The notes under the pieces were generated by a model. It saw only the letters and a list, made by a program, of their open reading frames with translations, did no database searches and had not been told where the DNA came from. Below are positions 762 through 33,792 of a stretch of 34,746 bases of DNA, piece after piece. The DNA lies in IMG/VR virus record IMGVR_UViG_3300047551_002253, positions 1 to 34,746 of that record; one strand, written 5' to 3'. Origin of the DNA: a virus. Within the stretch, counting starts at the first letter, position 1; every line of letters begins with the position of its first letter. The translations under genes were made by a program, and so were the position numbers.

Positions 762-2432
762 ATGGGACTGCGCACCTGGCTCCGCACTCAGCTCAACGTC
801 GTCCGCAACGGGCGCCGTGCTTATGACGCTGCCCGCTGGAATCGCTTCACCGCCGACTTCCTGGCCTCAAACACCAGCGCCGACGCCGAACTGCGCGGCA
901 GCCTCAAGGTGCTGCGCAACCGCAGCCGTGCGCTGGTCCGCGACAACCCCTACGCCCGCCAGGCCAAACGCACCACCCAGATCAACGTCGTCGGACCACG
1001 CGGCATCCAGATGCAGCCGCAGATCCTCCGCCCCAACGGCCAAGAAAAGGACGAACGCCGCAACACCGCCCTAAGCCTCGCCTGGAACCGCTGGTGCCGT
1101 GCCGACTCCTGCGATGTCACCGGCCGCCTCAGCTTCCACGGCATCGAACTCTCCATCGTCGGCGCCCTCCCCGAATCCGGCGAGATCGGCATCCGCCTGG
1201 TCCGCCAGCCCATGGGCCGCAGCAAGGTGCCCCTCAGCCTCGAACTAGTCGAATCCGACCAGATCGACGACGACTACACGGGAGTCAGCGATCGCCCTAA
1301 GCACTACTGGCGTATGGGGGTCGAGCTAAATGAGTGGGGGCGCCCCACCCGCTACGCCATCCTCCGCAAGCACCCCGGCGACGCCGAACTCGGCACCTAC
1401 ATCGACGGCACCGCCAAGCACCTCTTCATCGACGCCGCCGACTTCATTCACGTTTACATGCCGGACCGCGTAGGTCAGACACGCGGCGTGCCCTGGTTCG
1501 CCCCCGTCATCACCACCTCCTGGAACCTCGGCAAGTACGAGGAGGCCCACTGGACCCGCAAGCGCGTCCAAGCCAACAGCCTCGGCTGGATCCAGACCCC
1601 CGAGCCCGACCAATTCGGCAGCCTCAACACCGACGGCAGCCCCGCCCTCGAAGGCGACAAACGCCTCTGGAACACCGAGCCCGGCTCCTACAACTTCCTC
1701 CTGCCCGGCGAAACCGCCATCCCGCCCGATTTCGGCCCCGACGACGGCCAGTACGAAGCGGTGGTCCGCACCCTGGCCCGCCGCTTCGCCGCCGGCTACG
1801 GCTGCTCCTACGAAACCATCAGCCGCGATTTCTCCGACACCAACTACAGCAGCTCCCGCCTAAGCATCTTGGAGGACCGCGATCACTGGCGCGTAATCCA
1901 GTCGATCCTCATCCAACAGGTACACCAGCGCATATTCGAAGAGTGGCTCATGGCCGCAGCGCTTACCGAGCTGCCCATGCCCATGTTCTCCGATGTGTGG
2001 ACCCGCCCCGACCGCTACAACACCCCTCACTGGCAGGCCCGCGCCTGGAGCTGGGTCGATCCCGCTAAGGAGATGAAGGCGATGGAGCAAGCCCGCGCCC
2101 TCCAACTCCAGACCCACGCCGAGCAAATCATGGAGTACACCGGCAACGATTTCATGAGCACGATGACCACCATCAGCAAGGAAAACGAAATCAAGGTCGA
2201 TCTCGGCCTCCGCCGCCCCAACACCAACACCCCGAGCAACGCCACCCCCAACAGCAACGGCAACGCCACCCCACCCCAGCCCAACCGCTCCATCGACTTC
2301 GCCGAAGACCTCGAAGCCGACTATCCGCCCGACGACTCAATCGAACTCCACCTCGACGCCTCCGAACCCCCCATCCGCCTCCGCACCGACCTAAGTCGCC
2401 TGGCCCGCGCCACCACACCCCTCGACCCCTAA
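762..2432 (+). CDS. Portal protein, lambda gpB family
   Basis: 556 aa, close to the usual size for the lambda gpB type (phage_portal_2). The portal forms the dodecameric ring at one capsid vertex through which DNA is packaged and ejected. Family features are the N-terminal region with RSRALVRDNPYARQAKR followed by NVVGPRGIQMQP, the VESDQIDDDY segment near residue 165, IHVYMPDRVGQTRGVPWF near 230, and a FAAGYGCSYETISRDFSDTN segment near 345. The C-terminal tail (about 490-556) is Asn/Pro/Asp-rich and low-complexity. The gene follows the gpW-like gene and precedes the protease-capsid gene, as in lambda. Its TAA stop lies inside a copy of the dispersed CTAAGC repeat. Confidence 0.95.
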   Translation: MGLRTWLRTQLNVVRNGRRAYDAARWNRFTADFLASNTSADAELRGSLKVLRNRSRALVRDNPYARQAKRTTQINVVGPRGIQMQPQILRPNGQEKDERRNTALSLAWNRWCRADSCDVTGRLSFHGIELSIVGALPESGEIGIRLVRQPMGRSKVPLSLELVESDQIDDDYTGVSDRPKHYWRMGVELNEWGRPTRYAILRKHPGDAELGTYIDGTAKHLFIDAADFIHVYMPDRVGQTRGVPWFAPVITTSWNLGKYEEAHWTRKRVQANSLGWIQTPEPDQFGSLNTDGSPALEGDKRLWNTEPGSYNFLLPGETAIPPDFGPDDGQYEAVVRTLARRFAAGYGCSYETISRDFSDTNYSSSRLSILEDRDHWRVIQSILIQQVHQRIFEEWLMAAALTELPMPMFSDVWTRPDRYNTPHWQARAWSWVDPAKEMKAMEQARALQLQTHAEQIMEYTGNDFMSTMTTISKENEIKVDLGLRRPNTNTPSNATPNSNGNATPPQPNRSIDFAEDLEADYPPDDSIELHLDASEPPIRLRTDLSRLARATTPLDP

Positions 2433-2517: not shown

Positions 2518-5400
2518 ATGGCCAACGTGAACGGCACCGAAATTGACCTCACGCCGACCAGCGGTATGCGGGAGGAGGCCGAGCGCTACCGCGCCTGGAA
2601 GGACGAGGGCCAAGCGGGTGGGACGGACGTAGCCAGCACCCGCGCCACTCAAATCCTCAGTGGCAACGAGCTAAGCCCCGACACCGTGATCACCATGAGT
2701 GCGTGGTTCGCCCGCCACGAAGTTGACAAGCAGGCCGAAGGCTTCAGCCCCGGCGAGGCCGGCTACCCCTCTCCCGGTCGGGTCGCCTGGGCCGCCTGGG
2801 GCGGTGATCCCGGCAAACGCTGGAGCGACAGCCTCTCCGACCGCATCAAACAGGCCGAAGACCGCACCGCCCCCACGCCGCCAAGCAGCTTGCGGGCAGC
2901 CCCCGGCGCACTCAGCGAGGGCGACTTCGTGGCGTGGAACAGCTCAGGTGGCACGGCCCGGGGCCGCATCGAGCACATCATGCGCGAGGGCGTGCTCGGC
3001 ATCCCCGACAGCGACTTCAGCATCACCGCCACCCCCGACGATCCCGCCGCCCTAATCCGCATCTACCGCCCCAGCGGCGACGGCTGGGACGAAACCGAAA
3101 CCCTCGTAGGCCACAAGTTCTCCACGCTGCGCAAAATAAATCCGCTAAGCAGCGCGGATGACGAGGACGACGATAAACGGGGCGCCGAGCCGCGCAACCT
3201 AGAGCAACGCCCTTACCCCAACGAACACGCCGCCCGCCTACTCGACCCCGACCAATTCGAGCGCTTTCGGCGCAGTGCCAATGAGTTCGGCCAGGGCATC
3301 GACGCAATCTACGGAATAAGCGGCAACGAGCCGGTGCAATTACAGGCACTAAGGTTCGATGCTGCCCGCTTTACAGTGAGTGAAGCCAAAGATTGGCTAG
3401 GCGAACACGATTACAAGCCCATCCTCTTCGAGCCCGCTACCGGTAAGTCCATGGAGACCGCAACTGCTATCGACGTCAAGGCACTTAGCAAGGAGGTGCA
3501 CCGCCGCGAAGCCCCCCAAGGACTCCGCATCGAGGACACCGACGCCACGGGGCTCACCTTCAGCTTCAGCTCCGAAGCACCCGTGGAGCGTTGGTGGGGC
3601 CGCGAGGTGCTGCTGCACGACGCCGAGTCCATGGACCTGGCCCGCATGAACGATGGCGGCCCCTGGCTCTGGAACCACAACCGCGACGTAGTTCTCGGCG
3701 TCGCCGAGAAAGCCTGGCTCGGTGACGACCGCCGCCTCTACGTCAAAACAAAATGGAGCCCCAACACCACCGAAAAGGGCACCGAGGAGTACAAGCGCAG
3801 ACGCGACATCGAAACCGGCATCGTCCGCAACGTATCCTTCGCCTACGAAATCAACGACGTACGCGAAGCACCTAACGGCGATATGCAAGTAACACGCTGG
3901 AACGTACTGGAGGTGTCATCCGTCAGCGTCCCAGCTGACCAGAGCGTCGGTCTAGGCCGCGCATTAAGTTCCACCGAACCAACAGAACCAACATCCGTGC
4001 CCGTACAAGAAACGCATCAACCCGAATCTTCTACACTTCAAACTAAGCAGACCGCCGAGCGCGGAACTGACACCCCCCAAGCAATTCCTTCCATGGAACA
4101 ATCCATCAACGTCCAGGAGGTGCAAACCGCCGCTCGGCAGTCCGAGCGTGAGCGTGTTGCCGCCATCCGTGCCATGTGCGACCAACACCAAGTCGGCGCC
4201 GATCTGGCCACCCACCTCATCGACACCGACGCCTCCCTCGACCAAGCCCGCGAGGCTGTCCTGAAGCAACTCGGCCGCACCCGCACCGAGTTCCAGGGAC
4301 GCGTCCACGATGACGGCGCCGCCTCCATCGGCCTGACCCCCCAAGAGGTCAAGCGCTACAGCCTGATGAACGTGATCCGCCACCTGGCCGATCCGTCCGA
4401 TCGCAGCGCCCGTGAAGCTGCCTCCTTCGAGCTGGAGTGCTCCAAGGCCGCCGAAACCAAGCTGGGCCGCGCCGCCCGTGGCGTCGTCATGCCCTGGGAC
4501 GTGATGGCCGCGCCCCAACTCCGCGCCCCCCAATCCGTAGGCACCGCCTCTGCCGGCGGCTACGTGGTCGATACCCAGCTGCTCACCGGCTCCTTCATCG
4601 ACCTGGTGCGTAACCGCTCCGCCCTGCTCGGCCTCAACGTCACCACCCTCACCGGCCTGGTCGGCAACGTTGATATCCCGAAAAAGACCGGCAACACCAC
4701 CGCCTACTGGGTCGGTGAGGACGTGGCCGTCAGCGAGACCAACCTCACCCTCGGCCAAGTCTCCATGACCCCCAAATCCCTGGGCGGTTACGTGGACATC
4801 ACCCGCCGGCTGATGATCCAGCAGTCCATGGACGTGGAAGCGATGGTCCGCGCTGACCTCGCCGAGTCGATCGCCCTCGCCATCGACTCCTCCGCTGTCT
4901 ACGGCCTCGGCGGCGCCTCCGCCCTCCTCGGCCTCAAGAACATCACTGGCGTGGGCACCGAAACCCTCACCAGCGACGCCAACACCAACAAGTCCATCGG
5001 GGGCGTCACCTACTACTTCGGCAACTTCGCCGACTACGTGAACATGGAGACCACCGTCTCCGTGAGCAACCTCGACGTTGCCTCGATGTTCTACGTGGGC
5101 AACGCTCACGTGCGCGGCGCCCTCAAGCAGACGCTCCGCAACACCAACAGCGAGATGATGATCTGGGAGAACAACGAGGTCAACGGCTACGCCGCCCGCG
5201 TAAGCAACCAGCTCGTCGGCTCCAATGTGCTATTCGGCGACTTCTCCCAGGCCATCTTCGGCTTCTGGTCTGGCGTCGATGTCACCGTGGATCCCTATAC
5301 AAACTCCACCAAGGGAACCACCCGCATCGTGGCCTTCCAGGATGTGGACTTCGGAGTCCGCAACCCCGCCGCCTTCGTCTTCGGTTCCGGTAACGCCTGA
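2518..5400 (+). CDS. Prohead protease-major capsid protein fusion with N-terminal accessory domains
   Basis: 960 aa, one uninterrupted frame. Residues ~17-105 form a helical domain (AWFARHEVDK...VAWAAWGGDPGKRW). Residues ~134-207 look like a Tudor/SH3-type domain (GDFVAWNSSGGTARGRI). Residues ~231-311 carry the RPYPNEHAARL domain often linked to prohead proteases. Residues ~337-480 are an HK97-type (U35-like) prohead protease, with likely catalytic His387 (NHN), Ser440 (VRNVSFAYEI) and a conserved Glu465 (LEVSSVSVPAD). A linker at ~480-525 leads to a helical delta-like region (~527-585), then an HK97-fold capsid protein (~600-960; GGYVVDTQLL, DITRRLMIQQS, C-terminal VRNPAAFVFGSG). A Met at 526 (nt 4093) has no obvious ribosome site. 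The protein presumably self-cleaves to release the shell subunit. Confidence 0.92.
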   Translation: MANVNGTEIDLTPTSGMREEAERYRAWKDEGQAGGTDVASTRATQILSGNELSPDTVITMSAWFARHEVDKQAEGFSPGEAGYPSPGRVAWAAWGGDPGKRWSDSLSDRIKQAEDRTAPTPPSSLRAAPGALSEGDFVAWNSSGGTARGRIEHIMREGVLGIPDSDFSITATPDDPAALIRIYRPSGDGWDETETLVGHKFSTLRKINPLSSADDEDDDKRGAEPRNLEQRPYPNEHAARLLDPDQFERFRRSANEFGQGIDAIYGISGNEPVQLQALRFDAARFTVSEAKDWLGEHDYKPILFEPATGKSMETATAIDVKALSKEVHRREAPQGLRIEDTDATGLTFSFSSEAPVERWWGREVLLHDAESMDLARMNDGGPWLWNHNRDVVLGVAEKAWLGDDRRLYVKTKWSPNTTEKGTEEYKRRRDIETGIVRNVSFAYEINDVREAPNGDMQVTRWNVLEVSSVSVPADQSVGLGRALSSTEPTEPTSVPVQETHQPESSTLQTKQTAERGTDTPQAIPSMEQSINVQEVQTAARQSERERVAAIRAMCDQHQVGADLATHLIDTDASLDQAREAVLKQLGRTRTEFQGRVHDDGAASIGLTPQEVKRYSLMNVIRHLADPSDRSAREAASFELECSKAAETKLGRAARGVVMPWDVMAAPQLRAPQSVGTASAGGYVVDTQLLTGSFIDLVRNRSALLGLNVTTLTGLVGNVDIPKKTGNTTAYWVGEDVAVSETNLTLGQVSMTPKSLGGYVDITRRLMIQQSMDVEAMVRADLAESIALAIDSSAVYGLGGASALLGLKNITGVGTETLTSDANTNKSIGGVTYYFGNFADYVNMETTVSVSNLDVASMFYVGNAHVRGALKQTLRNTNSEMMIWENNEVNGYAARVSNQLVGSNVLFGDFSQAIFGFWSGVDVTVDPYTNSTKGTTRIVAFQDVDFGVRNPAAFVFGSGNA

Positions 5401-32651: not shown

Positions 32652-33562
32652 TAAAACTTATCGCATCGACTTACTAATCTGGCCTTGTAAGCGTTTACAC
32701 GCATTTTGCTATGCAGCACCTGCATTTTGTGGCGTAGCCGCTCCCGCGTGATCCCGCACTCCTTCGCCAGAACCGATAAGGCTGCCGGCGGATTCCCGTC
32801 TAAGCCGTACCGCTTCTTAATAAGGTGCGTCTCCTCCTCGCTCAGGCACGCCAACGCGAGCTGGAGCGTTGCCTTGTTTTCTACCTGTATCTCGAAATCG
32901 TGCTGCGCATCGACTGCGTTCTCGTCCAGCACAAAATCAATCATCGTTCCATCGCCCTCTGCAACACACGAATCCAGACTGCAGTGCCGTGCAGATCGCG
33001 TAAGCATTAGCAGCACATCGTCATAACGTGAATGCACGTGCTCTGCGAGTTCTTCTATGGTTGGTGCGCGTCCATGTTCAGTCATAAACGTACGCTTATA
33101 CCGCTCAATCTTATACACTTTATCTACACTGTGTTGCGGTATGCGTATAAGACGTTCTTTCATATCAATGCCGCGTGTAATACCTTGCTTTATCCACCAG
33201 TAGGCATAAGTGGAAAACTTGTAGCCACGTGTGTGATCAAACAGCTCGGATGCACGCGCAAGACCCAACGTACCTTCCTGTATAAGATCCATCAACTCCA
33301 TATTAGTACCACTAAGCCTAGTCCCATACTGCTTAGCAATGTATACAACAAGACGTAAGTTAGAAGTAACCAGCGTCTGCTTAGCTTTGTGGCCGCGCTT
33401 GAGCAGTCGTTTTTCCGCAAGAGTCAGATCCTGCTTGTCTTCTAAAAGCCGCGCCTCCGCTATTGTTCTGGCCAGTTCAATTTCTTGACTAGCTGTAAGC
33501 AGGGGGTAGACACTGATTTCATTTAGGTACTGCTGAACCCCGTCAGCCCTTAATTTGGCCAT
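32651..33562 (-). CDS. Phage-encoded sigma-70 family factor, cyanobacterial group-2-like
   Basis: 303 aa from ATG 33562 (MAKLRADGVQQYLNEIS); the open frame extends upstream to 33760 but that part is not protein-like and crosses a hairpin. Region 1.2 is residues ~7-40 (YLNEISVYPLLTASQE). Region 2 is 66-138 with NLRLVVYIAKQY, LMDLIQEGTLGL and YKFSTYAYWWIKQGITR. Region 3 is ~139-215. Region 4 is ~236-290, with LSEEETHLIKKRYGLDG and TRERLRHKMQVLHSKMR. The domain order lacks region 1.1, as in group-2 sigmas. The region 4.2 helix departs from the usual TRERIRQIEAKALRKLR, so it may read altered -35 sequences. It probably directs host RNA polymerase to phage promoters. Confidence 0.9.
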   Translation of the reverse strand: MAKLRADGVQQYLNEISVYPLLTASQEIELARTIAEARLLEDKQDLTLAEKRLLKRGHKAKQTLVTSNLRLVVYIAKQYGTRLSGTNMELMDLIQEGTLGLARASELFDHTRGYKFSTYAYWWIKQGITRGIDMKERLIRIPQHSVDKVYKIERYKRTFMTEHGRAPTIEELAEHVHSRYDDVLLMLTRSARHCSLDSCVAEGDGTMIDFVLDENAVDAQHDFEIQVENKATLQLALACLSEEETHLIKKRYGLDGNPPAALSVLAKECGITRERLRHKMQVLHSKMRVNAYKARLVSRCDKF

Positions 33563-33577
33563 TGTCGGTGTGTGTGT

Positions 33578-33611
33578 AAGAAAAAATAAAAGTGTGCGCT
33601 GGTGTACGCAC
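33578..33611 (-). terminator. Minus-strand intrinsic terminator or attenuator upstream of sigma
   Basis: On the minus strand GTGCGT pairs with GCGCAC (33611-33606 with 33599-33594, the last pair G-T) around a 6-base loop, followed by a T-rich run (33591-33580, TTTTATTTTTTC). It lies between the 46-aa gene and the sigma gene. It could end transcripts from the right or attenuate sigma expression. Confidence 0.5.
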
Positions 33612-33618
33612 GGAACAA

Positions 33619-33627
33619 ATTGTAACA
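33619..33627 (-). promoter_or_regulatory. Possible extended -10 promoter for sigma
   Basis: The minus strand reads TGTTACAAT, an extended -10 with hexamer TACAAT at 33624-33619. No good -35 is seen 16-18 bp upstream. The start site would fall at about 33612, at the base of the hairpin. Weak evidence. Confidence 0.3.
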
Positions 33628-33651
33628 TAAGCGCAGTCACGCATCCGCGCA

Positions 33652-33792
33652 CTAATCGCTTTGCTCGATGCAGCTCATGAACTCGGCGCCTGGTCCGGCC
33701 AGCTCCAGCCCAGATCGAATCGCATGACCCACGCTGTACGCCATCACGTCGAGCACGCAATGGCGAAACGTCACTCGATAAGTTTTCAACAT
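33652..33792 (-). CDS. Small protein, unknown function
   Basis: 46 aa from ATG 33792 (MLKTYRVTFRHCVLDVMAYSV); the frame runs further upstream to 33897 but that part overlaps the next gene and looks non-coding. A short strand and helix are followed by LELAGPGAEFMSCIEQ. It has a sensible composition and I recall similar short cyanophage proteins, but no function is known. Confidence 0.55.
   Translation of the reverse strand: MLKTYRVTFRHCVLDVMAYSVGHAIRSGLELAGPGAEFMSCIEQSD

Follow-up and report, generated by a model that had tools for sequence, protein, structure and literature searches.

A phage protease-capsid fusion gene with shuffled N-terminal modules and a conserved internal methionine as a probable nested start

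The window, namely the whole 34,746-base virus record analysed here, carries on its plus strand a single unbroken frame (ATG to TGA) encoding a 960-aa protein directly downstream of a portal gene (Table 1). Pfam searches assigned Phage_capsid (PF05065) to residues 680-956 (8.8e-37) and Peptidase_S78 (PF04586) to residues 363-475 (27.1 bits against a cut-off of 21), and Hva1_TUDOR (PF11160) matched residues 135-180 with 21.6 bits in the whole protein and 26.5 bits in the segment alone, the cut-off being 24.1. The phrog_617 'major head protein' family spanned residues 340-958 (6.6e-139), with protease, delta and capsid collinear in one frame, and the capsid part matched the solved HK97-fold capsid 8gta (E 6.5e-48). 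The NCBIfam model 'prohead protease/major capsid protein fusion protein' (NF045541) matched residues 341-595 with 133 bits, which is below its full-length cut-off of 525 bits; R4C, Arya, VP882 and S-CBS1 likewise score under this cut-off. The frame is not a chance one, because dozens of relatives keep it whole and, in all three N-terminal modules, nonsynonymous changes per site are rarer than synonymous ones (pN 0.12-0.24, pS 0.42-0.85). The ORF check, Pfam and phrog_617 bore out the coordinates given in the initial annotation and its reading of protease, capsid and accessory domains in one frame.

The catalytic His and Ser that had been named at the outset were also confirmed: H387 and S440, together with E465, are unchanged in 47 of 47 diverse relatives. 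The AlphaFold model of the protease (pLDDT 90) aligned to T4 gp21 with Z 10.2 (rmsd 3.1, 128 residues) and to herpesvirus proteases with Z 7-9, and Foldseek by itself returned no match to it at E<=0.001. From profile match, invariant residues and this model, the domain is predicted to be an S78/herpesvirus-fold prohead protease.

Table 1. Features of the fusion locus in the window
Feature	Position	Strand	Basis or remark
Portal protein, lambda-type	762-2432	+	PF05136; directly 5' of fusion ORF
Fusion ORF: modules A-B-C, S78 protease, delta segment, HK97-type capsid	2518-5400	+	960 aa
Module A, aa 1-116, all-helical	2518-2865	+	phrog_2859 1.2e-29; AlphaFold
Module B, aa 125-215, Tudor/KOW/SH3-like barrel	2890-3162	+	PF11160; VIA-align
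Module C, aa 225-318, RPYPNEHAARL..IRFDA..WL domain	3190-3471	+	Sequence comparison; AlphaFold
S78 prohead protease, aa 333-485	3514-3972	+	PF04586; invariant residues; fold
Protease residues H387, S440, E465	3676-3678, 3835-3837, 3910-3912	+
Linker	3973-4092	+	Protein poorly conserved; low GC3; high synonymous conservation adjoining 4093
Conserved block CAGACCGCCGAGCGCGGA, 18 nt	4048-4065	+	Starts 45 nt upstream of internal ATG
Possible long-range stem, 5' arm	4050-4052, 4054-4061, 4062-4064	+	Within 4048-4065
Proposed internal start codon, Met526	4093-4095	+	Would open nested 435-aa delta-capsid product
Delta/scaffold segment, aa 526 to ~669	4093-4524	+	Homology to delta of phrog_617-type fusions; 3' end estimated
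Possible long-range stem, 3' arm CCG.CGCTCGGC.GTC	4127-4142	+
Alternative hairpin CGCTCGG-CAGT-CCGAGCG	4131-4148	+	+38 to +55 after internal ATG; excludes long-range stem
Mature capsid, from ~aa 670-680 to 960	4525-5397	+	PF05065; 8gta aligned from aa 680

Protease-capsid fusion is known and common, hence not new in itself. A tblastn search matched 92 phage records, two IMG/VR scans for relatives each yielded at least 560 loci, and the commonest architecture in our HMM census was the protease-capsid fusion without modules (at least 106 non-redundant complete ORFs). Such fusions have been reported in Arthrobacter and Microbacterium phages, and the passages that deal with them in those two papers do not mention an internal start (PMC5513430, PMC9671004). 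The initial annotation was right that fusions are known elsewhere; the interest it attached to the fusion as such was misplaced, since more than 100 non-redundant loci and these two papers show it to be common rather than exceptional. Behind the portal gene, the NF045541/PHROG 617 proteins of R4C, VP882, Arya and ep3 likewise run protease-linker-delta-capsid in a single frame, with further examples in Arthrobacter phages Circum (gp12) and Maggie (gp7) and in Microbacterium cluster EE; unlike these, the window protein adds 332 residues of N-terminal modules. The closest named relatives are gp04 of Synechococcus phages S-CBS1 and S-CBS3 (47% identity), which contain modules A and C, protease and capsid and are annotated merely as 'major capsid protein', but lack module B as well as two features of the window's clade, the hairpin and the conserved block. 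The window also encodes, on the minus strand at 32654-33760, a phage sigma-70 family RNA polymerase sigma factor with regions 1.2, 2 and 3, which together with the S-CBS and S-LBS relatives suggests a cyanobacterial host.

Several loci deviate from the one-frame arrangement. Protease and capsid lie in different frames in L406, which was rejected as a natural split gene and reads like an indel within delta. In Roseobacter phage CRP-823 (L083, 3656-3696) the module part and the protease-capsid part occupy two overlapping frames; the break amounts to one extra T compared with CRP-831, and the split may be natural or a sequencing error. Two frames of about 1000 aa (L327, 3486-6464; L328, 3465-6482) carry modules A and B, plus E in L327, before an HK97-type protease (TIGR01543), and their C-terminal part is missed by capsid models and reads like a divergent capsid.

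AlphaFold with a 49-sequence alignment resolved residues 1-332 into three confident domains (mean pLDDT 85), of which A is helical, B a barrel and C mixed. Module B aligned to KOW/Tudor/SH3 barrels with a middling VIA-align Z of about 7, and a barely sampled PDB search gave no convincing match for the fold of module A. The census of complete ORFs recorded at least 15 arrangements before the protease: A-B-C, A-C-B, A-B, A-C, A, C, C-B, B, A-D-B-C, A-D-C-B, A-D-C, A-C-D, D-B-C, A-E-C and A-E, where D (four-Cys) resembles HIPIP and E resembles DUF5824, each match falling under the Pfam cut-off. One close relative (L038) is 81% identical from residue 317 on, yet lacks all modules, and a short stretch after its portal gene still resembles, in a different frame, the last part of module C; in S-LBS1 only the initial residues, MANVNG, are left of the module part. 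By sequence comparison, modules A-C are thus a shuffled, dispensable kit.

Module A, with tblastn matches in 40 phage records, is also found outside the fusion. It occurs on the prohead proteases of phiPsal1 and DSL-LC01, on a haloarchaeal virus portal and on MuF-type proteins (L295, L329), and it stands alone in S-CBS4; a fold search gave the same link to proteases and portals. Since its carriers are mostly proteins of the prohead lumen or portal vertex, lumen cargo would be the simplest common factor. The module-A protease gene of Actinomycetia phage DSL-LC01 is immediately preceded by a gene whose annotation is high-potential iron-sulfur protein (L100, 2012-2746); compare the Cys-rich module that is fused in other phages.

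An alignment of 51 fusions placed a Met where the variable linker meets delta, and this Met is present in essentially all fusions of the cyanophage-type, roseophages and gammaproteobacterial phages, although the linker itself is unconserved. Met526 of the window is kept in 22 of 22 aligned close relatives, and the flank preceding it ranks with the least conserved parts. As a Met is often expected by chance in a 50-residue linker, the weight falls on Shine-Dalgarno and synonymous-site tests. The first cultured phages examined have strong in-frame Shine-Dalgarno sites before the Met (cggagga in R4C, agaggtg in VP882, aaggag and ggagg in CRP phages), and the matches in some relatives (MQ-4, M29) are weak. 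The border Met occurs in 40 of 41 non-redundant proteobacterial-type fusions, where the mean Shine-Dalgarno energy is -5.33 kcal/mol compared with -2.92 kcal/mol at the remaining in-frame Mets (p=1.5e-9); the contrast with non-Met linker codons is likewise significant (p=2.3e-9). In a held-out set of 37 loci, from which everything resembling the exploratory set was excluded, the Met was found in 36 and the two tests gave p=1.4e-7 and 4.3e-7. The averaged profile of the proteobacterial-type loci has its minimum at -11 nt, where such a site belongs.

The window's clade retains the Met and a nucleotide constraint around it, and the Shine-Dalgarno signal resides in the proteobacterial-type relatives, so that an internal start is supported only indirectly in the window's clade. 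No Shine-Dalgarno site precedes 4093, as the initial annotation had remarked. This absence is no argument against Met526: a site is equally missing from the starts at 207, 762 and 2518, which have leaders that are C-rich, G-poor and weakly folded as at 4093. C-rich imperfect direct repeats at 13-174 and 2401-2475, which precede the genes at 207 and 2518, share CCACGCCACTAAGCCC. A Shine-Dalgarno-like AGGAGGTG at 4115-4122, whose GAGGT is invariant in 18 relatives, lies 22-29 nt after the internal ATG; it was rejected as a ribosome site, since it follows the ATG and no further start codon lies close enough behind it. An internal promoter was likewise rejected, as 3900-4250 holds no sigma-70-like site, and no promoter- or terminator-like site was found near 4093.

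In the window's clade, synonymous codon conservation reaches its two highest values in the ORF at -15 and +14 codons from Met526, and the gammaproteobacterial type has no such peak near the Met. The 18-nt block has 45 exact matches in IMG/VR, 44 of them in this gene, and all 44 fusion loci carry an in-frame ATG exactly 45 nt from its start. The block has a core, GCCGAGCG, complementary to CGCTCGGC at 4131-4138; in this pairing 93% of cells are paired and the core does not vary, and the alternative hairpin is 100% paired with a variable loop. The region folds more stably than synonymous shuffles in the window (z -2.8) and to varying degrees in relatives (-0.1 to -3.3). RNAalifold, run on 18 sequences, failed to find the long-range stem, and covariation consists of one A-U/U-G exchange, probably a single event; as the arms hardly vary, covariation is unable to prove a structure. 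Around the Met itself (-30 to +20 of 4093) structure is weak, at the mean 8.5th percentile of codon positions, but only mildly so relative to synonymous shuffles, and it was given no weight as evidence. The element belongs to one clade and is absent from S-CBS, S-LBS1, L066 and the gammaproteobacterial type.

The number of protease copies bears on how such a gene could be used. In HK97, some 60 proteases accompany 415 capsid subunits (PMC12749128). With lumen radii of 18.5-21 nm by our own estimate, and assuming an HK97-size T=7 prohead with the N-terminal part inside, 415 full-length subunits would fill 0.96-1.40 of the lumen, and full length at one in seven would fill 0.31-0.46, compared with 0.23 for HK97. 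Under these assumptions, the volume of the lumen speaks against shells made entirely of full-length protein. The cryo-EM chain of the R4C capsid (8gta) comprises residues 362-629 of a 629-residue fusion, and as it begins at residue 362 the shell there is the C-terminal part alone. By alignment, the mature shell of the window's phage should begin near residue 670-680 rather than at 526, with a putative cleavage site near R669. R4C (L078) reportedly packs its DNA loosely relative to the size of its capsid, at 0.44 bp/nm3 (PMC10276861), and it may be speculated that retained cleavage fragments are one reason.

The fusion, the catalytic residues and fold, the conserved Met, the Shine-Dalgarno sites of proteobacterial relatives, the synonymous constraint and the shuffling and loss of modules are read from the sequences; we infer that the internal start is used, in what ratio the products arise, where they are cleaved, and what the modules do and become. 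The locus is probably a nested head gene, in which internal initiation at Met526 yields abundant delta-capsid and full-length protein is the minority. Translation from 2518 would give a 104-kDa polyprotein containing modules A-B-C, protease, delta and capsid, and a start in the same frame at 4093 would give, in excess, a 46-kDa delta-capsid protein equivalent to HK97 gp5. Both products would co-assemble through their common delta-capsid part, so that the full-length minority takes the protease, together with the modules, inside the prohead. There the protease would cut delta off the capsid near residue 669 and most likely free itself and the modules, leaving a shell protein of roughly 280-291 residues. 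The modules, with the same probability as the nested gene as a whole, would be optional prohead-lumen cargo swapped among phages. The S78-type protease, the delta domain and the proposed cleavage after assembly are as in HK97 gp4/gp5, which are separate genes. Nested protease-scaffold genes in which the shorter 3' same-frame product is the abundant component exist in lambda (C/Nu3) and herpesviruses (UL26/UL26.5); there the nested product is scaffold, and in the window it would be scaffold plus major capsid protein. The likeness to UL26 extends to the predicted herpesvirus-like protease fold, the nesting being deduced here from sequence alone.

The initial annotation held that cis cleavage must set the stoichiometry of protease and shell, or else that Met526 supplies extra capsid. 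The former is the weaker branch, given the lumen that full-length shells would need and the support for Met526; the latter is favoured by the conserved Met, the relatives' Shine-Dalgarno sites and the clade's nucleotide element. In its strict form, a polyprotein made only as the 960-aa product would be cut in cis or trans shortly after it is made, ahead of assembly or in its course, with surplus protease and modules staying in the cytoplasm or leaving the prohead. The intact frame of most relatives and the invariant catalytic residues agree with this, and cleavage alone would also yield an R4C shell chain without the N-terminal 361 residues. We consider it unlikely, as it leaves the conserved Met with its Shine-Dalgarno signal and the synonymous peaks around 4093 unexplained; if subunits assembled 1:1 and uncleaved, a T=7 lumen would be overfilled, and if they were cut beforehand, the delta scaffold would be lost too soon, barring a separate site between protease and delta. 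It is similarly improbable that the nucleotides around 4093 serve RNase processing, mRNA stability or a DNA signal, or reflect codon bias of a recently spread haplotype, with the Met kept for the protein. The restriction of the element to one clade and the invariance of its core pairs, which leaves the structure unproven, speak for such a role, but the 45-nt spacing to the ATG is constant, homologous Mets in other clades have independent Shine-Dalgarno evidence, and nothing like a promoter or terminator lies nearby.

The modules could instead be effectors or DNA-binding proteins that are ejected into the next host with the genome, rather than transient assembly factors. The Tudor/KOW-like barrel and the presence of modules on lumen-facing head proteins would fit this idea, which is rather unlikely, though not far-fetched, given that close relatives dispense with the modules. 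If mosaic recombination at the portal/protease junction maintained them as inert or selfish passengers, the many arrangements and losses would be accounted for; the confident AlphaFold folds and pN/pS well under 1 in all three modules make this decidedly unlikely. Against these readings, a nested gene with optional lumen cargo is preferred. A broader proposal is more doubtful, though possible: that fusion phages generally use a nested start to set the protease:shell ratio, that in the clade lacking Shine-Dalgarno sites a cis RNA element with two exclusive pairings (4048-4148) tunes initiation, and that modules serving as prohead-lumen cargo plug in at the N-terminus.

What is new here is the conservation of Met526 together with the Shine-Dalgarno sites of relatives, the clade's synonymous constraint and complementary arms, and the shuffled modules; a search of open papers found none describing an internal start in such fusions, although this does not prove that none exists. 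One frame implies one protease per shell subunit, about seven times the proportion in HK97, and the nested start, if true, would solve this stoichiometry problem of fusion phages. Database entries named 'major capsid protein' would then hide a second, shorter product, and a natural cargo-loading site would be marked in an HK97-type capsid.
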